Below are positions 4,686-55,885 of a stretch of 64,000 nucleotides of DNA, one piece after another. The stretch comes from Mesobacillus jeotgali. Lineage in GTDB: Bacteria; Bacillota; Bacilli; Bacillales; Cytobacillaceae. The notes under the pieces are model-generated. The model saw only the letters and a list, made by a program, of their open reading frames with translations. It was not told where the DNA came from and searched no databases. The translations under genes and the position numbers were made by a program. Every line of letters begins with the position of its first letter. Position 1 is the first letter of the stretch. The stretch spans positions 3,842,501-3,906,500 of the forward strand of contig NZ_CP134494.1 in the NCBI RefSeq assembly GCF_031759225.1. The letters run 5' to 3'.

Positions 4686-4845
4686 AAATAAAAATGCCTC
4701 TTTCATTCATATGAAAGAGGCATCGTAACATCTATACGACTTATCTTTCAGAATGAAAACATTCTGTAGGAAGTGGCACCTTTCCATAATGGAGGTTGCC
4801 GGACGTCATCGGGCCTAATCCCTCAGTCTCTCTTGATAAGTTTCT
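4686..4845 (-). promoter_or_regulatory. SAM-I (S-box) riboswitch
   Basis: On the minus strand the leader begins with CTTATCAAGAGAGACTGAGG, followed by GGCCCGATGACGTCCGGCAACC, the conserved P1/P2 and core segments of the SAM-I aptamer. It ends in a terminator hairpin at 4694-4723 (atgcctctttcat / atgaaagaggcat) with a T-run. With SAM bound, the terminator should form and metNIQ should be off. Confidence 0.95.
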
Positions 4846-9524: not shown

Positions 9525-11409
9525 ATCGAGTAGGAGGGGGTGACTAACCCCCGACCTCTCACACCACCGTACGTACCGTTCGGTATACGGCGGTTCAATT
9601 AAGTGTGACGTAGAAATTCATATCTTTGATATAGACTTTTGAGCCCTCGATGACTCCAATAAGAGTTATCGAGGGTTTTGTGTAAGATTGGACTTGAGGC
9701 AATTCTCCAAAATTTCTTTCTGGAATTTCCCCATTCGTATGCCTTTTGGTCTGGAACGCCAAGACTTTTGAGTTTTCTTACTCTTGTCTTCGGGTTCTTC
9801 CATTGTTTCCATTCAATCATACGGAGTCTTCTTCTAATCCACTCATCAAATTCTTTGAATTTACTTGGTGTATCAGCTAATGCAAAATATCCACACCATC
9901 CCGTTAGAAATTGATTCAATTTCTCAATTCTAACTTCCATGGGGATTGGTTTAGAACGGGATGTTAACTTTCGTATTTTAGCTTTTAGCCTTTTAACACT
10001 TTCGTTGGCTATTCGAACCTTCGGTTTCTTATTAACCGTAAAGCTAAAGCCAAGGAATTTTCGTTTCCACGGGCGGTCAACCGCTGATTTCCCTCTGTTT
10101 ACTTTGAGCTTTAATTTCTGCTCAATGAAGCATGTAATGGAGTTCATTACTCGTTCTCCAGCTTTCTTCGATTTCATGTAAATATTACAATCATCGGCGT
10201 ATCGGACAAACTTGTGACCTCTCCTTTCTAGTTCTTTATCAAGCTTATCCAAAAGTATATTCGAAAGAAGAGGGCTCAGGGGACCTCCTTGTGGTGTTCC
10301 TTCTTCTGCATCGTAGACTACACCATTTATCATGATTCCTGCTTGGAGATATTTTCGAATTAGCTTCAAGACCAATCGGTCTTGGATTCTGCTTGCCAAT
10401 ATCCCCATCAGCTTGTCATGATTCACTTTGTCAAAGAACTTCTCCAAGTCCATGTCAATCACCCATCTGTAACCTTCACTTATATATCCCCTTGCTTTAC
10501 GTACAGCGTCATGGCCTCTTCGGCTTGGCCTAAACCCATAACTATGTTCCGAGAAGGTTGGGTCAAAAAGCGGAGTTAAAACTTGGGCGATTGCCTGTTG
10601 GATGAAACGATCTATCACGGTAGGTATTCCAAGTAACCTTACTCCACCGTTCGGTTTCGGGATTTCGACTCGACGTACTGGGTTAGGTTGATAGGTACCT
10701 TTCCTTAAAGAATCACAAAGGGTGTCCCAGTTCTCATAGAGATGTCTTCGTAGGGATTTTACGGACATTCCATCTATGCCGTGACTCCCTTTGTTCTTCT
10801 CCACACGTTTAAGTGCTTCTATTAAGTTTTCCCGTGATAGAATCAGATTCATTAACATGTGATATTTCCTTTCGACGTGAACGTAGAAATCTAATTATGT
10901 TATTCCTGCTCCACCCTCATGAAGTCCCCTGTGGATTCACCACTTCCTCCTTCAAGTAAGTCCTTTCGGATTGTCTGCTTCTACACAGGAATTGTATGCC
11001 TAGTTCTCGTTCTTCCTAATTGTTCAGTCCTTCCCTTACCGTCTCGAGCCGGTAAAGTACTATGACCTCTGCTGACTTCTGATTGTTCAGCTATCTATTG
11101 CTAGATAGGTTACCAAGTGTACTTGGCTTTCCAATCAGACCTCCCCGGGTAAGAGTACAGTCTTTCCCTCCATCTATCTGCTTCATTTACTCTGTACCAC
11201 CTTCGGCAGTAAGGACTTTGTTTTGTTCTGCAAACTCATCCAATGGTACCTAGCCTTATATGAAGTTCGTGTTCCTCAGACCGGAGGTTTGCCGCTCGCT
11301 TCCTTCAGATTCCGCGTCACCGCGGACACCCTTGCGTTAAGCTAACCACTACTACTGCCTTCATGGCTCGGGACTTACACCCTATAGACTGCACCCATGC
11401 CGGGCGCAC
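9525..11409 (-). mobile_element. Group II intron, copy 1 (group IIC-like)
   Basis: A 1,885-bp element on the minus strand. Its 5' end is GTGCG (11409 down to 11405) and it ends in ...CTCGAT at 9525, with a domain V/VI-like 3' structure around 9540-9600. It encodes a reverse transcriptase without an endonuclease domain. It is inserted directly behind a terminator hairpin and U-tract, the usual target of group IIC introns. A second copy at 46605-48489 has the same length and no base differences in my line-by-line comparison. The class is assigned from RT length and target type, without a structure fold. Confidence 0.93.
9599..10858 (-). CDS. ltrA: Group II intron reverse transcriptase/maturase
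   Basis: A 419-residue intron-encoded protein. The reverse transcriptase domain (about 40-290) has GIPTVIDRFIQQAIAQVL, the SYGFRPSR motif, TPQGGPLSPLLSNILLDKLD and the catalytic YADD (about residues 221-224). A maturase/thumb region (GIIM-like, FLTGWCGYFALADTPSKFKEFDEWIRRRLR) follows. There is no HNH endonuclease domain, and the length matches compact group IIC proteins. It should splice the intron RNA and prime its insertion into new sites. It is identical to the protein of copy 2. Confidence 0.95.
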   Translation of the reverse strand: MLMNLILSRENLIEALKRVEKNKGSHGIDGMSVKSLRRHLYENWDTLCDSLRKGTYQPNPVRRVEIPKPNGGVRLLGIPTVIDRFIQQAIAQVLTPLFDPTFSEHSYGFRPSRRGHDAVRKARGYISEGYRWVIDMDLEKFFDKVNHDKLMGILASRIQDRLVLKLIRKYLQAGIMINGVVYDAEEGTPQGGPLSPLLSNILLDKLDKELERRGHKFVRYADDCNIYMKSKKAGERVMNSITCFIEQKLKLKVNRGKSAVDRPWKRKFLGFSFTVNKKPKVRIANESVKRLKAKIRKLTSRSKPIPMEVRIEKLNQFLTGWCGYFALADTPSKFKEFDEWIRRRLRMIEWKQWKNPKTRVRKLKSLGVPDQKAYEWGNSRKKFWRIASSPILHKTLDNSYWSHRGLKSLYQRYEFLRHT

Positions 11410-13565: not shown

Positions 13566-13769
13566 AAAGCCCCCAGAGGCTAAAAGATAGCAGCCTTGTG
13601 GACTTTGTACATACTTGTCACACAAGCTTCATCTTCCTCTTCTGCAACGCTTACGGAGTTAGCTGTCGGATTAGGGCTCAGAATAGCCCCGCCTGTTATT
13701 CAGGCCTCACCCCAAGTGGATTGCTCCACAAAGTTGGTTCCCCCGCTCTGTTCAGATTCAGCGATTTAG
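13566..13769 (-). promoter_or_regulatory. c-di-AMP (ydaO/yuaA) riboswitch
   Basis: The minus strand reads AATCGCTGAATCTGAACAGAGCGGGGGA, then TTGGGGTGAGGCCTG, and later AATCCGACAGCTAACTCCGTAAGCG, the signature blocks of the ydaO aptamer. A terminator-like stem near 13566-13600 (ending in ggggcttttttg) follows and precedes the K+ transporter gene. The upstream stretch 13780-14078 holds the divergent upstream regions of this leader and of the lipid kinase gene. Confidence 0.95.
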
Positions 13770-14078
13770 AAATATGAAACTCATTTAATATCTTAAACTG
13801 CTGTAATCATACTCCTCCGCCATTCCATTGTAAACATGAAAAGGAAGCCAAAAAAGACGCTTTTCATTCAATTTCAACCATTATTGATGACAAATAATCG
13901 TATTTCTTACTGAATCTCCGTTTTTCTTTGTTTTTCATGTTTGATTATTGGACGATTTTACTACTGATAACGGAGTTTATACCAAACCATTTTAAGGTAA
14001 ATAATAGGATTGAATAAACGCGCCAATGATTAGAGTTGATACGATTTTAAAAATAAATCGTACGGGAGGTTATCGTCG

Positions 14079-18138: not shown

Positions 18139-18380
18139 ATAATCCACTCCCTATTAGAATACTTCTATTTCCTAAATAATATAAAATATTCAGTATATTC
18201 TAAATAGGGGGAAAGTATCGATTGATAGTTTTTTTCGTGAGTCGAAAGGCTTAACTTTTATATATCTTTATAAAAACTAACTATATTACCATAATAAACC
18301 ATATAATATTTTCATACTGACTATATTTATTTATTTACCCCACAAAACTCTGGCTACCTCTCAAGCTTCTATCCGATATT

Positions 18381-18850
18381 GGATCATCTTCTGACAACTT
18401 TTCCTCCTTTTCCCTCCAACCTGTCTGAAGTTGGAGCATCTTCTGACAGCTTTCCTCCCTTTTCCTCCAAACCTGTCTAAAGTTGGAGCATCTTCTGACA
18501 ACTTTTCCTCCTTTTCCTCCAAACCTGTCTAAAGTTGGAGCATCTTCTGACAGCTTTCCTCCCTTTTCCTCCAAACCTGTCTAAAGTCGGAGCATCTTCT
18601 GACAGCTTTCCTCCCTTTTCCTCCAAACCTGTCTAAAGTTGAAGCATCTTCTGACAACTTTTCCTATTTTTCCTTCAAACCTGTCTAAAGTTGGAGCATC
18701 TTCTGACAACTTTTCCTATTTTTCCTTCAAACCTGTCTAAAGTTGGAGCATCTTCTGACAACTTTTCCTATTTTTCCTTCAAACCTGTCTAAAGTTGGAG
18801 CATCTTCTGACAGCTTTTCCTTCTATCCCATCAAACCTGTCATAATAACA
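18381..18850. repeat. 52-bp intergenic tandem repeat, 9 units plus decayed units
   Basis: The block GGAGCATCTTCTGACA recurs with starts at 18381, 18433, 18485, 18537, 18589, 18641, 18693, 18745 and 18797, exactly 52 bp apart. Each unit carries small inverted repeats (CTGTC/GACAG and TTGGAG/CTCCAA). Decayed units with CCTGTCA continue to about 18918. The array fills the gap between the protease gene start and the TSUP gene end, both on the minus strand. Short open frames inside it are products of the repeat. The part from 18210 to 18380 is AT-rich with nothing recognised. Confidence 0.95.
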
Positions 18851-33842: not shown

Positions 33843-33860
33843 GCTTGGTTCTTGGGTTTT

Positions 33861-34375
33861 TTGGACATTTTGGTGCTGTTCCGCCTTCGAAATGTCCATT
33901 AAACCTTCTTTCTTGGACATTTTGGCGCTAATCCGCCTTCGAAATGTCCATTAACCCTTCTTTCTTGGACATTTTGAGGCTGCTTCGCCTTCGAAATGTC
34001 CATTAAACCTTCATTCCTAGACATTTTGGTGCTGCTTCGCCTTCGAAATGTCCATTAAACCTTCTTTCTTGGACATTTTGGCGCTAATCCACCTTCGAAA
34101 TGTCCATTAAACCTTCTTTCTTGGACATTTTGAGGCTGCTTCGCCTTCGAAATGTCCATTAAACCTTCTTTCTTGGACATTTTGAGGCTGCTTCGCCTTC
34201 GAAATGTCCATTAAACCTTCTTTCCTAGACATTTTGGTGCTGCTTCGCCTTAGAAATGTCCATTAAACCTTCTTTCTTGGACATTTTGGCGCTAATCCGC
34301 ATTCGAAATGTCCATTAAACCTTCTTTCCTAAACATTTTGGTGCTGCTTCGCCTTCGAAATGTCCATTAAACCTA
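33861..34375. repeat. 52-bp intergenic tandem repeat, 10 units
   Basis: Units begin TTGGACATTTTG at 33861, 33913, 33965, 34017, 34069, 34121, 34173, 34225, 34277 and 34329, exactly 52 bp apart. Each ends with CGAAATGTCCATTAAACCTTC. The arms TGGACATTT and AAATGTCCA of each unit form a hairpin. Unit variants change both arms little; loops vary (GGTGCTGCTTCGCC, GGCGCTAATCCGCC, GAGGCTGCTTCGCC). The array fills the gap between convergent genes and has no coding content. Confidence 0.95.
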
Positions 34376-40013: not shown

Positions 40014-40271
40014 ATGAAAAAACTGATCTTAAGTTTTTTAGGCGCAGCATTAATTTTAGGAGCCAGTACTGCTGCCTTCGCAGAAGAAGGGACAGACGGT
40101 AAGGGTACTTTTAATTTTGGGCAAATGAAGCCTTTGATCGAAAAGATGCACCCAGGCCTCTCCGCTGAAGAGGTCAAGCAAATGTACAATGATTGCCACG
40201 GAACAAACGGTGCCATGCAGAGTAAAAACTTTAATATGATGGATAACAACCATATGGATATCATTGATTGA
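40014..40271 (+). CDS. Small secreted protein, Met/His-rich end
   Basis: An 85-residue protein with a Sec signal (MKKLILSFLGAALILGASTAAFA) and a mature part with MKPLIEKMHPGLSAEEVKQMYNDCHG, a single Cys, and a Met/Asn/His-rich tail. It has a good site (aaaggagctgacc) and its own terminator. I know the pattern as an uncharacterised Bacillaceae family; metal binding is possible from composition but not shown. Confidence 0.75.
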   Translation: MKKLILSFLGAALILGASTAAFAEEGTDGKGTFNFGQMKPLIEKMHPGLSAEEVKQMYNDCHGTNGAMQSKNFNMMDNNHMDIID

Positions 40272-40370: not shown

Positions 40371-40406
40371 TAAAAAACAACCCGACCAAAATGGCCCAGG
40401 CTGTTT
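40371..40406 (-). terminator. Terminator of the plcR-papR-like operon
   Basis: Minus-strand stem AACAGCCTGGGCC / GGTCGGGTTGTT (with G-U pairs) followed by T6, shortly after the repeat-peptide gene. Confidence 0.7.
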
Positions 40407-40416
40407 CAAAAACTCC

Positions 40417-40752
40417 TTAAACTAAAGCTTTATTAAGTTCATGCTGTGATGGCAAATCGGCGATCATCGTGCCGTTTTGTGAATGCTGCGATGGCAAATC
40501 GGCGATCATCGTACCGTCCTGCGAATGCTGGGATGGCAAATCAGCAATCATCGTACCGTCCTGTGAATGCTGGGAAGGCAGATCGGCGATCATCGTGCCG
40601 TTTTGTGAATGCTGCGATGGCAAATCGGCGATCATCGTGCCGGTATGCGAATGCTGGGATGGCAGGTCGGCCAGGTTCTTATCCGCTGAATTCCAACCGA
40701 ACATTCCTGCAACAAAAGCTGCTATAAGGGGCAGAATTAATGTTCTCTTCAT
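40417..40752 (-). CDS. PapR-like pheromone precursor with six ADLPSQH repeats
   Basis: A 111-residue protein with a basic-hydrophobic export signal (MKRTLILPLIAAFVAGMFGW). Six identical heptapeptides ADLPSQH follow, at residues 28-34, 42-48, 56-62, 70-76, 84-90 and 98-104, separated by 7-residue spacers (SHTGTMI, SQNGTMI, SQDGTMI). The tail is ELNKALV. Copies differ only at synonymous codons (GCC/GCT, GAC/GAT, CTG/TTG, CCA/CCT, TCC/TCG/TCA), while spacers change amino acids. It begins 29 bp after a PlcR-like gene. PapR of B. cereus matures to ADLPFEF-type heptapeptides. Start chosen at 40752 after ctaggaggtataaa; a start 12 codons earlier lacks a site. Confidence 0.75.
   Translation of the reverse strand: MKRTLILPLIAAFVAGMFGWNSADKNLADLPSQHSHTGTMIADLPSQHSQNGTMIADLPSQHSQDGTMIADLPSQHSQDGTMIADLPSQHSQNGTMIADLPSQHELNKALV
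40441..40671 (-). repeat. 42-bp coding tandem repeat, 6 copies
   Basis: The block ggcaaatcggcgatcatc or a close variant begins at 40451, 40493, 40535, 40577, 40619 and 40661, exactly 42 bp (14 codons) apart. It encodes the six heptapeptides and their spacers. Confidence 0.95.
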
Positions 40753-40781
40753 TTTATACCTCCTAAGCCTAGGTGTAACTA

Positions 40782-41669
40782 TTAACAATACTTCAATAAT
40801 TTTTCCATTTCATCTCTTACTAAACTAGCAAACTTGTCATTCTTCTGCAGCTTGAAAATCGTGACTGCTTTTTCAAGATATTCCTTGCCTTTGTTTTCTT
40901 TACCCAATTTGATGTAATTCATGCCTGTTTGATAATAAAGTTCTCCAAATAAATACATATTTTCTTCATAAATACAATTATCGATTCCCTTGCTGGAATA
41001 AATGAGGGATTCTTCATATCTCTCAAGTTTTGACAGTGCCTGGGCAAGGCCATAGAGAATCCTCAGCCAGATTTTTGAATCCTGGACTTGAGGAAGCTCT
41101 GTCAACTGGTTCAAAGCTTCATGAAAAAGCTCGACCGCCTTGTCCAGGTTTCCGCTATCCTTTTCGATGATCGCCATGCTCGTCAAAATCTCAATTTCAC
41201 GTTCTGTCATTGCAGCCTCTTCCTTATGGGTCATGTCCAAAGCCTTGCTCAGCAAGTCAATAGATTTCTGTCTATCTCCCTCTAGGTAATAGCTGCATAT
41301 CCCCTGGTGCCATACCAGGAATTGATTGAATGATGTATGTTTGAACAGCGGATTATCCTGTTCCTTCTGGATTATTTCATTGATTGCGGCGTAATCCCGC
41401 TCTCTTTTATACTTTTTTATTAACTCGGTAACACCGATGGCGTAATTGTAAGTATCAGTGGAAGCGATATCGAAGAAATGGTTGAACTCGACTTCGAGCT
41501 TTGATGCCATTTTCGATAATTGATCGATTGTTGGATATTTCTCTTCTTTTTCAAATTGAATGATATCCTCTTCAGTACAGATCCCCTCAGCCAACTGTGT
41601 CTCAGTCAAACCTTTAAAAACCCTAGTAGACCTAAGAATTTTCCCGAAGTTATATCCAACCAGGCTCAT
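40782..41669 (-). CDS. PlcR-like HTH-TPR quorum-sensing regulator
   Basis: A 295-residue RRNPP-family regulator. The N-terminal XRE helix-turn-helix (about 8-65) closely parallels PlcR (LRSTRVFKGLTETQLAEGI against PlcR's IRVLRGLTQKQLSENI; KYPTIDQLSKMASKLEV against YPSMDILQGIAAKLQI). It is followed by TPR repeats (about 75-290) including FNQFLVWHQGICSYYLEGD. In this family an imported peptide binds the TPRs and switches DNA binding. PlcR itself is about 285 residues. The next gene encodes an exported peptide precursor. I saw no canonical PlcR box (TATGNAN4TNCATA) upstream. Confidence 0.85.
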   Translation of the reverse strand: MSLVGYNFGKILRSTRVFKGLTETQLAEGICTEEDIIQFEKEEKYPTIDQLSKMASKLEVEFNHFFDIASTDTYNYAIGVTELIKKYKRERDYAAINEIIQKEQDNPLFKHTSFNQFLVWHQGICSYYLEGDRQKSIDLLSKALDMTHKEEAAMTEREIEILTSMAIIEKDSGNLDKAVELFHEALNQLTELPQVQDSKIWLRILYGLAQALSKLERYEESLIYSSKGIDNCIYEENMYLFGELYYQTGMNYIKLGKENKGKEYLEKAVTIFKLQKNDKFASLVRDEMEKLLKYC

Positions 41670-41781
41670 CCCCTACACCCCATTTAATATTAATTATATC
41701 TATATTATCACAATGTTAATAACTTTTAAAAATCCGAAGAGACAACCCGGATGCTAACCCTTTTTTCCCAATCCAGTTTGT

Positions 41782-41940
41782 TTATTTTATATAAGTAAAA
41801 TAAGGCAGGATCAGCACAGCAACTGAAAGCAGACTAACTACAATCGCTCCTGCTTTGTTTTTTTGCTTCCAGATGGTCACTGCAAAGGCGAAGGAATAAA
41901 CAGATACCAGGAACACAGCTCCCCATATCAATACAATCAT
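41782..41940 (-). CDS. Small membrane protein after gerC
   Basis: A 52-residue protein starting MIVLIWGAVFLVSVYSFAF, with two membrane helices (about 3-21 and 30-50). Its ATG lies 1 nt after the gerC stop, and gtgaggg inside the gerC end serves as the ribosome site, so it is translationally coupled to the germination receptor. Some spore germinant-receptor operons carry a fourth small membrane subunit (GerD/GerX type); this is a likely example. Confidence 0.75.
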   Translation of the reverse strand: MIVLIWGAVFLVSVYSFAFAVTIWKQKNKAGAIVVSLLSVAVLILPYFTYIK

Positions 41941-46604: not shown

Positions 46605-48489
46605 ATCGAGTAGGAGGGGGTGACTAACCCCCGACCTCTCACACCACCGTACGTACCGTTCGGTATACGGCGGTTCAATTAAGTGTGACGTAGAAATTCA
46701 TATCTTTGATATAGACTTTTGAGCCCTCGATGACTCCAATAAGAGTTATCGAGGGTTTTGTGTAAGATTGGACTTGAGGCAATTCTCCAAAATTTCTTTC
46801 TGGAATTTCCCCATTCGTATGCCTTTTGGTCTGGAACGCCAAGACTTTTGAGTTTTCTTACTCTTGTCTTCGGGTTCTTCCATTGTTTCCATTCAATCAT
46901 ACGGAGTCTTCTTCTAATCCACTCATCAAATTCTTTGAATTTACTTGGTGTATCAGCTAATGCAAAATATCCACACCATCCCGTTAGAAATTGATTCAAT
47001 TTCTCAATTCTAACTTCCATGGGGATTGGTTTAGAACGGGATGTTAACTTTCGTATTTTAGCTTTTAGCCTTTTAACACTTTCGTTGGCTATTCGAACCT
47101 TCGGTTTCTTATTAACCGTAAAGCTAAAGCCAAGGAATTTTCGTTTCCACGGGCGGTCAACCGCTGATTTCCCTCTGTTTACTTTGAGCTTTAATTTCTG
47201 CTCAATGAAGCATGTAATGGAGTTCATTACTCGTTCTCCAGCTTTCTTCGATTTCATGTAAATATTACAATCATCGGCGTATCGGACAAACTTGTGACCT
47301 CTCCTTTCTAGTTCTTTATCAAGCTTATCCAAAAGTATATTCGAAAGAAGAGGGCTCAGGGGACCTCCTTGTGGTGTTCCTTCTTCTGCATCGTAGACTA
47401 CACCATTTATCATGATTCCTGCTTGGAGATATTTTCGAATTAGCTTCAAGACCAATCGGTCTTGGATTCTGCTTGCCAATATCCCCATCAGCTTGTCATG
47501 ATTCACTTTGTCAAAGAACTTCTCCAAGTCCATGTCAATCACCCATCTGTAACCTTCACTTATATATCCCCTTGCTTTACGTACAGCGTCATGGCCTCTT
47601 CGGCTTGGCCTAAACCCATAACTATGTTCCGAGAAGGTTGGGTCAAAAAGCGGAGTTAAAACTTGGGCGATTGCCTGTTGGATGAAACGATCTATCACGG
47701 TAGGTATTCCAAGTAACCTTACTCCACCGTTCGGTTTCGGGATTTCGACTCGACGTACTGGGTTAGGTTGATAGGTACCTTTCCTTAAAGAATCACAAAG
47801 GGTGTCCCAGTTCTCATAGAGATGTCTTCGTAGGGATTTTACGGACATTCCATCTATGCCGTGACTCCCTTTGTTCTTCTCCACACGTTTAAGTGCTTCT
47901 ATTAAGTTTTCCCGTGATAGAATCAGATTCATTAACATGTGATATTTCCTTTCGACGTGAACGTAGAAATCTAATTATGTTATTCCTGCTCCACCCTCAT
48001 GAAGTCCCCTGTGGATTCACCACTTCCTCCTTCAAGTAAGTCCTTTCGGATTGTCTGCTTCTACACAGGAATTGTATGCCTAGTTCTCGTTCTTCCTAAT
48101 TGTTCAGTCCTTCCCTTACCGTCTCGAGCCGGTAAAGTACTATGACCTCTGCTGACTTCTGATTGTTCAGCTATCTATTGCTAGATAGGTTACCAAGTGT
48201 ACTTGGCTTTCCAATCAGACCTCCCCGGGTAAGAGTACAGTCTTTCCCTCCATCTATCTGCTTCATTTACTCTGTACCACCTTCGGCAGTAAGGACTTTG
48301 TTTTGTTCTGCAAACTCATCCAATGGTACCTAGCCTTATATGAAGTTCGTGTTCCTCAGACCGGAGGTTTGCCGCTCGCTTCCTTCAGATTCCGCGTCAC
48401 CGCGGACACCCTTGCGTTAAGCTAACCACTACTACTGCCTTCATGGCTCGGGACTTACACCCTATAGACTGCACCCATGCCGGGCGCAC
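46605..48489 (-). mobile_element. Group II intron, copy 2 (group IIC-like)
   Basis: 1,885 bp, same ends (GTGCG ... CTCGAT) and same sequence as the copy at 9525-11409. It lies directly behind the terminator hairpin of the gene at 48535. The 5' exon ends CTTTTTCT, matching the copy 1 site (CTTTTTTCT), and the 3' exon starts with T in both. Lack of differences points to a recent retrotransposition. Confidence 0.93.
46679..47938 (-). CDS. ltrA: Group II intron reverse transcriptase/maturase, copy 2
   Basis: 419 residues, identical to the protein at 9599-10858, with the YADD catalytic motif, intact maturase region and no endonuclease domain. Both copies are therefore likely functional. Confidence 0.95.
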   Translation of the reverse strand: MLMNLILSRENLIEALKRVEKNKGSHGIDGMSVKSLRRHLYENWDTLCDSLRKGTYQPNPVRRVEIPKPNGGVRLLGIPTVIDRFIQQAIAQVLTPLFDPTFSEHSYGFRPSRRGHDAVRKARGYISEGYRWVIDMDLEKFFDKVNHDKLMGILASRIQDRLVLKLIRKYLQAGIMINGVVYDAEEGTPQGGPLSPLLSNILLDKLDKELERRGHKFVRYADDCNIYMKSKKAGERVMNSITCFIEQKLKLKVNRGKSAVDRPWKRKFLGFSFTVNKKPKVRIANESVKRLKAKIRKLTSRSKPIPMEVRIEKLNQFLTGWCGYFALADTPSKFKEFDEWIRRRLRMIEWKQWKNPKTRVRKLKSLGVPDQKAYEWGNSRKKFWRIASSPILHKTLDNSYWSHRGLKSLYQRYEFLRHT

Positions 48490-55397: not shown

Positions 55398-55885
55398 AAG
55401 GACTGATAGACACCCTTATGTTTCACTTTTTTTCTCCATAAGGGTTCCGTTCGGGCTGATAGACACCCTTATGCTTCGCTTTTCTTCTCTATAAGGGTAC
55501 CGTTCGGGCTGAAAGACACCCTTATGCTTCGCCTTTCTTCTCCATAAGGGTACCGTTCGGGCTGAAAGAGGCCCTTATGCTTCGCTTTTCTCCTCCATAA
55601 GGGTACCGTTCGGGCCTTAAGATACCCTTATGCCTCGCTTTTCTTCTCTATAAGGGTACCATTCGAGCCGCAAGACTCCCTTATGCTTCGCTTTTCTTCT
55701 CCATAAGGGTACCATTCGAGCCGCAAGAGGCCCTCATGCTTCGCTTTTCTTCTCTATAAGGGTTCCGTTCCTCACGATAGATACCCTTATGCTTGCCATT
55801 CCACCCACATAAGGGTTCCGTTCTACACGATAGATACCCTTATGCTTGCCATTTCTCATACATAAGGGTTCCGTTCGAGCCACAA
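55398..55885. repeat. 53-bp intergenic tandem repeat, 9 units
   Basis: ATAAGGGT begins at 55438, 55491, 55544, 55597, 55650, 55703, 55756, 55809 and 55862, exactly 53 bp apart. In each unit ACCCTTATG...CATAAGGGT forms a hairpin with a loop containing CTTCGCTTTTCTTCT; the link is CCGTTCGGGCTGAAAGAC or a variant. Some paired changes keep the stem (55561 and 55721 region variants ggcccttat, gccctcat). It fills the gap between rocD and yugI. Open frames inside it are repeat artefacts. The 55186-55397 part holds only the rocD upstream region. Confidence 0.95.

Follow-up and report, generated by a model that had tools for sequence, protein, structure and literature searches.

A PlcR-like regulator and its predicted multi-copy pheromone precursor in Mesobacillus jeotgali

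Introduction

A 64,000-nucleotide (nt) stretch of the Mesobacillus jeotgali genome (contig NZ_CP134494.1, positions 3,842,501 to 3,906,500; the whole stretch is called the window below) contains a gene for a PlcR-like regulator that is directly followed by a gene for a small protein in which one short peptide is repeated six times. The question raised by this locus is whether the small protein is a pheromone precursor whose product is read by the adjacent regulator. A first reading, made from the sequence alone, had proposed a multi-copy, PapR-like pheromone system outside the Bacillus cereus group. Our analysis indicates that the pair is very probably a one-component quorum-sensing system, in which the PlcR-like receptor would read the predicted peptide DLPSQH, carried in six copies by each presumably exported precursor. 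Such loci also bear on an open question, namely how a bacterium alters its signal word and yet keeps its listener.

The regulator and the precursor

The regulator (295 amino acids (aa); 40782..41669, minus strand) has an N-terminal helix-turn-helix (HTH) and a C-terminal tetratricopeptide repeat (TPR) domain (RNPP_C), as judged by sequence, Pfam and predicted fold. The predicted precursor gene (111 aa; 40417..40752, minus strand) follows after 29 nt, and within this gap an AGGAGG ribosome-binding site (40759..40764, minus strand) precedes its ATG. The precursor starts with lysine/arginine followed by a hydrophobic stretch (MKRTLILPLIAAFVAGMFGW...), and this N-terminus, judged by eye, makes export likely. 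It contains six perfect copies of ADLPSQH with a period of 14 residues; the DLPSQH units, located from sequence and codons (40651..40668, 40609..40626, 40567..40584, 40525..40542, 40483..40500 and 40441..40458, all minus strand), are separated by 8-residue linkers, and the last is followed by a 7-residue tail, ELNKALV. This arrangement of regulator, gap and array was confirmed as first described. Codon usage differs among the six copies, and overlapping 105-nt segments of the array at 42-nt spacing have 65–90% identity to the reference copy; thus the DNA has drifted and the peptide has been retained. The array was also detected by TRF (40441–40671, 5.5 copies of 42 nt).

The regulator matches the Pfam model RNPP_C at 79.6 bits (cut-off 26.5) and several TPR models above cut-off, and its length lies inside the approximately 250–500 aa expected of RRNPP(A) receptors with peptide-binding TPRs. 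PlcR was the top structure by sequence, by profile and by predicted fold, and superposition of the predicted fold on PlcR aligned 281 of 284 residues. Membership of the RNPP family, as proposed, is therefore borne out, and the likeness to PlcR holds in that PlcR is the closest structure; but the identity is 28.4%, and in the tree PlcR lies on a long branch outside the receptor clade with weak support (86/45). The regulator thus appears to be a PlcR-like protein of a lineage separate from PlcR, and is called PlcR-like here rather than a PlcR orthologue. Pfam includes a PapR model. The repeat protein could not be placed in that family, which was absent among its Pfam and NCBIfam matches up to E 1.

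Distribution of the pair among relatives

The genome that holds the window consists of one contig of 4.63 Mb, and the pair is not peculiar to this genome. A search of 193 genomes of the family at a receptor threshold of E ≤ 1e-60 found 65 receptor places in 61 genomes, and all 65 have a downstream open reading frame (ORF) with PxxH units, so that the repeat gene is conserved beside the regulator. Within the genus, 19 of the 20 other genomes have the receptor, and the remaining one (G011) has neither receptor nor precursor. The gap between receptor and precursor is 22–63 nt in 64 of the 65 places; in L043 it is not measurable because of a stop in the receptor frame, and this locus was left out of the alignment and trees. 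In L017 one copy is visible ahead of a run of N; this locus was left out of the copy counts and the tree, and in the co-variation counts it was coded DLPSQH on the strength of that single complete copy. No PxxH array was found downstream of 12 PlcR-like paralogues (31–38% identity), and weak precursor matches outside the receptor set came from G037 (E 2e-4), G040 (6.5e-4) and G054 (8.8e-7).

Copies per precursor range from 1 to 16 (maximum in L095), with at least two in 63 of 64 readable precursors and a single copy in L108. As a result of copy number, 21 of the relatives' 64 precursors exceed 100 aa, as does that of the window (111 aa). In 33 of these 64 the protein ends exactly at a PxxH unit, without the tail seen in the window, and three precursors run off the contig. 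The hexamers fall into 22 majority types among 64 receptors, so homologous pairs with different repeat sequences, which the sequence-only reading proposed to look for, do exist. Named database entries for such precursors come from Mesobacillus, Cytobacillus and Bacillus and are annotated as hypothetical; the exception is a Robertmurraya entry (P0027) that is hypothetical at NCBI and has a UniRef label beginning 'Phosphatase'.

The conserved unit

All copies were compared with one another inside each of 64 precursors. A copy had to match in four or more of 5 residues to be picked, which biases the values for P and H toward conservation; the hexamer's first residue played no part in the picking and is equally constrained. 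The nonsynonymous difference per site (pN) was 0.36 just before the hexamer, 0.02, 0.02, 0.00, 0.00, 0.007 and 0.005 along it, and 0.23 at the next residue, while synonymous differences (pS) between copies were at least 0.42 at each position from -7 to +10. Only 4 of 328 copies deviate from the majority 5-mer of their own precursor, three without the histidine (PSQD, PSQL, PTQY) and one without the glutamine (PSKH). Chance or low complexity was rejected as the source of the arrays, given so few deviant copies in the face of these synonymous differences.

These values point to the hexamer DLPSQH as the selected unit, as six residues are constrained and the preceding alanine is kept weakly. The heptamer ADLPSQH first proposed as the unit therefore stands as a real repeat and not as the span marked by selection. 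The active form may nevertheless comprise five to seven residues, and it is possible, if rather unlikely, that the pheromone is correctly recognized here and its active form is the heptamer or the pentamer LPSQH. The heptamer would match the length of PapR7, ADLPFEF (PMC6568020). Alanine is also the commonest residue before the hexamer (41.8 of 64, weighted), and Mesobacillus shows partial conservation of it (pN/pS 0.25); in the other precursors, this position evolves like the linkers (0.67, compared with 0.69 and 0.64 for linkers between copies). The pentamer is disfavored because constraint on the residue following the alanine equals that on the core (pN 0.02).

Receptor-peptide co-variation

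In PlcR, PapR Glu6 is contacted by Lys87, Lys89, Gln237 and Tyr275 (PMC6568020). These residues align with R89, R91, E243 and F280 of the present regulator, and position 5 of the hexamer corresponds to Glu6. All 16 receptors whose peptide has E at position 5 combine W91 with N or S at 243. R91 together with E243 is found in 42 of the 43 with Q; the one that deviates, L107, is nested in the E clade and has W91, S243 and a unique L89. Complete separation of this 17-row clade from the other 47 rows is seen in 4 of 295 columns, two of which are contacts (hypergeometric 8e-4). Along the tree, position 5 changes on six branches, and column 89, 91 or 243 also changes on five of them (five of six in 100 of 100 bootstrap trees), compared with 1 of 7, 0 of 5 and 0 of 8 for hexamer positions 1, 2 and 4. 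Among random column triples with equally many changes, 114 of 20,000 matched the contact triple, a count that omits the fourth contact (PlcR Y275). For position 5, the top-ranking of the 276 variable columns is column 89, a rank that is uncorrected for the many columns tested.

Changes of code within arrays

Two sister loci illustrate how the peptide differs between relatives: all six copies of L091 read GYPVQH (codon GTT), and all five of L092 read GYPTQH (codon ACT). Arrays of mixed code are rare (L175, with eight GLPAQH and two GLPVQH; L183, with one ELPTRH and five EMPTRH), and several arrays vary at the first residue of the hexamer only. For Rap-Phr systems, a diverged duplicate has been proposed as a promiscuous intermediate in specificity shifts (PMC5199041). 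We tentatively propose, at less than even confidence, that in this receptor clade tandem arrays switch their code as a block through all copies, that the Glu6-type receptor contacts change along with it, and that copy number (1 to 16) sets the dose. On this view, a pherotype switch would run through homogenization of the array, and not through a lasting mixed precursor.

The mixed array of L175 (G500) lies downstream of the receptor and could be an intermediate of a code change.

Possible origin of the arrays

When the single-copy receptor L108 was used as the query, 397 genomes of the order yielded 58 places, of which 39 were examined (37 of them from other families), 11 were family loci already known and 8 were left out. 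One unit ends the protein, as it does in PapR, in 15 of the 39 loci (e.g., GLPSQH, GLPNQH, ILPAQH or DLPIIH), 9 have 2 to 10 units, and in the remaining 15 no unit was found within 600 nt downstream; the upstream side was checked in 19 of the 39, by a hydrophobicity filter. In L120–L124, a 25–26-aa ORF ending in YPVIH between receptor and precursor has no hydrophobic start and was judged to be due to chance.

An outgroup tree was built by a quick method from 75 receptors (34 of the 65 family rows, 33 of the 39 order-level rows and 8 of the 12 paralogue rows). In this tree, 41 multi-copy rows group together (SH-aLRT 99) among single-copy rows, arrayless receptors lie further out, and the two-copy L135 falls outside the multi-copy group. 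This grouping suggests amplification of a single-copy precursor resembling PapR, with most arrays derived from one such event.

Proposed mechanism and alternative readings

In the proposed system, both genes, lying in the same orientation 29 nt apart, would probably be co-transcribed. The precursor would be exported through Sec, its units would be released by extracellular proteases that cut on either side of each one, and an oligopeptide permease would return the peptide to the cell. There the receptor would bind it in its TPR groove, with the same register as PapR, and the transcription of target genes would change, the peptide either activating the regulator or relieving its action. The genome encodes permease binding proteins and subtilases that could serve import and cutting, as do many Bacilli.

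A different explanation, which we regard as improbable, is that the repeat protein stays whole as a small exported or wall-associated protein and that the adjacent regulator merely controls its gene. A 14-residue tandem repeat with a tail does also resemble a structural or binding repeat protein, and the release of internal copies would need proteases to cut them out. A protein acting as a whole is, however, hard to reconcile with constraint on six residues only while the linkers change nearly freely and vary in length (SLFL, for instance, occurs in L033 only). Nor does it fit the relatives with the shortest precursors, of 28 aa with a single C-terminal unit (L143), or the change of receptor contact columns along with the peptide. 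That the units are antimicrobial or toxin-like peptides under a local control gene is most improbable: small repetitive exported precursors can carry antimicrobial peptides, but no immunity or transporter gene lies between the pair and its neighbors in the window, the neighbors differ between genera while the pair persists, and the co-variation involves the peptide groove of the regulator.

Several observations weigh against the quorum-sensing reading itself. The co-variation weakens to 621 of 20,000 when the fourth contact column (PlcR Y275) is added; one of the six branches, L105 (GIPTHH), has no contact change; L107 reverted to Q and yet keeps W91 and S243, with L89 instead; and the joint switch to E, W91 and N or S at 243 took place once, in a single clade. 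With so few events, the co-variation lends support rather than proof. The root-mean-square deviation of the superposition on PlcR, approximately 9.7, means that the domain arrangements of the two proteins differ. The PlcR box (TATGNAN4TNCATA) occurs neither at the locus nor elsewhere in the 64-kb window; the pattern has 13 exact places in this genome (G000), compared with 4 in the reversed control, and the receptor there appears not to be PlcR itself. Upstream of the regulator lies a promoter-like element, GATTTTTAAAAGTTATTAACATTGTGATAATATA (41701..41734, minus strand), that is kept in 20 aligned genus loci. Genome-wide, its upstream half with up to two mismatches gave 17 matches, compared with 17 in the reversed control, and the only perfect match was the locus itself. 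With no PlcR box at the locus and no excess of this element elsewhere, a regulon was not found. By eye, the element is not visible upstream of the receptors of other genera.

Relation to known systems

In the yeast alpha-factor precursor, a single exported protein holds several pheromone copies, identical and set apart by spacers. It has no homology to the present precursor, and its export, proteases and receptor type are different.

Like PlcR-PapR of the B. cereus group, the present pair has a receptor with an HTH and five-TPR-type domain, a precursor gene directly downstream, a peptide with a hydrophobic-Pro core (ADLPFEF compared with ADLPSQH; PMC6568020), and co-varying receptor columns that align with the Glu6 contacts of PlcR. 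Unlike PapR, it has histidine and not phenylalanine at the C-terminus, six units and not one, and a tail after the last unit. PlcRa-PapRa of B. cereus is similar in its PlcR-like receptor and in that CSIPYEY is internal to the precursor and not terminal, and differs in that PapRa has one copy and its gene lies upstream of the receptor (PMC3519770).

Up to six copies of the mature peptide have been reported in AimR, NprR, PlcR and Rap propeptides, and 3 of 15 large propeptides of the PlcR type contain repeats (Felipe-Ruiz 2022, PMC9765709). The proposal of a multi-copy PapR-like pheromone outside the B. cereus group is thus supported here, but multi-copy propeptides as such, those of the PlcR type included, are not new. 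Identical copies in one propeptide are common to those cases and ours, and some of the present loci may already be among them. Compared with the available text of that report, what is added is the extent (22 codes and as many as 16 copies across an entire receptor clade), the uniformity within arrays and the co-variation of the receptor. Tandem pheromone units also occur in the Rap-Phr systems of Phi3T and phi105, where the duplicated units are cut out by extracellular proteases such as WprA, Bpr and NprE and are active; these differ in having Rap phosphatase-type receptors without an HTH and two units. The paper on them also cites up to 8 copies (PMC11343458).

The strict rule of RRNPP_detector admits propeptides of 10–100 aa (PMC10075063), and would therefore miss the 21 longer precursors among the 64 here, which is a limit of detection and not of biology. 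Most subscription papers being outside its scope, our literature search found no account of the receptor clade or of the motifs LPSQH, IPSEH, LPTQH, YPVQH and DLPSQH. Among the matches listed in a motif text search, from which motifs shown only in figures would escape, none concerned these systems and none contained LPSQH. The cutting-out of internal pheromone copies has been termed a mystery (PMC9765709). For this problem, the clade, whose carriers are non-pathogenic environmental Bacillaceae, offers a natural series of precursors (one C-terminal copy, several copies ending C-terminally, several copies plus a tail) with 22 codes, and also sister species whose arrays are distinguished by one residue throughout, as well as named receptor columns.

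Genomic surroundings

A terminator-like stem-loop with a T-run lies 3′ of the precursor (40374..40407, minus strand; z -3.0). Upstream of the pair, a GerA/GerB/GerC-type germination operon and a 52-aa ORF are shared by L033 and 19 of the 20 genus loci, and this neighborhood was not seen at the other loci compared, so a link with germination is only a thought. The 52-aa ORF (41782–41940, minus strand) is unlisted, resembles a membrane protein and lies between the operon and the regulator on the same strand. Convergent with the precursor is an exported-looking 85-aa ORF (40014–40271, plus strand) with no Pfam family. It recurs beside the pair in L033 and at 17 of the 20 genus loci; two of the three loci that lack it are at a contig edge.

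Elsewhere in the window, a group II intron is present in two copies (11027–11326 and 48107–48406, minus strand), which score equally in Rfam and lie 37 kb apart, and a reverse transcriptase/maturase ORF (46679–47938, minus strand) adjoins the second. Three tandem arrays of 52–53-bp units in 9–10 copies, with differing consensus sequences, were found at 18379–18841, 33857–34374 and 55403–55877, and an S-adenosylmethionine (SAM) riboswitch and a cyclic di-AMP (c-di-AMP) riboswitch at 4738–4842 and 13632–13773, respectively, both on the minus strand.
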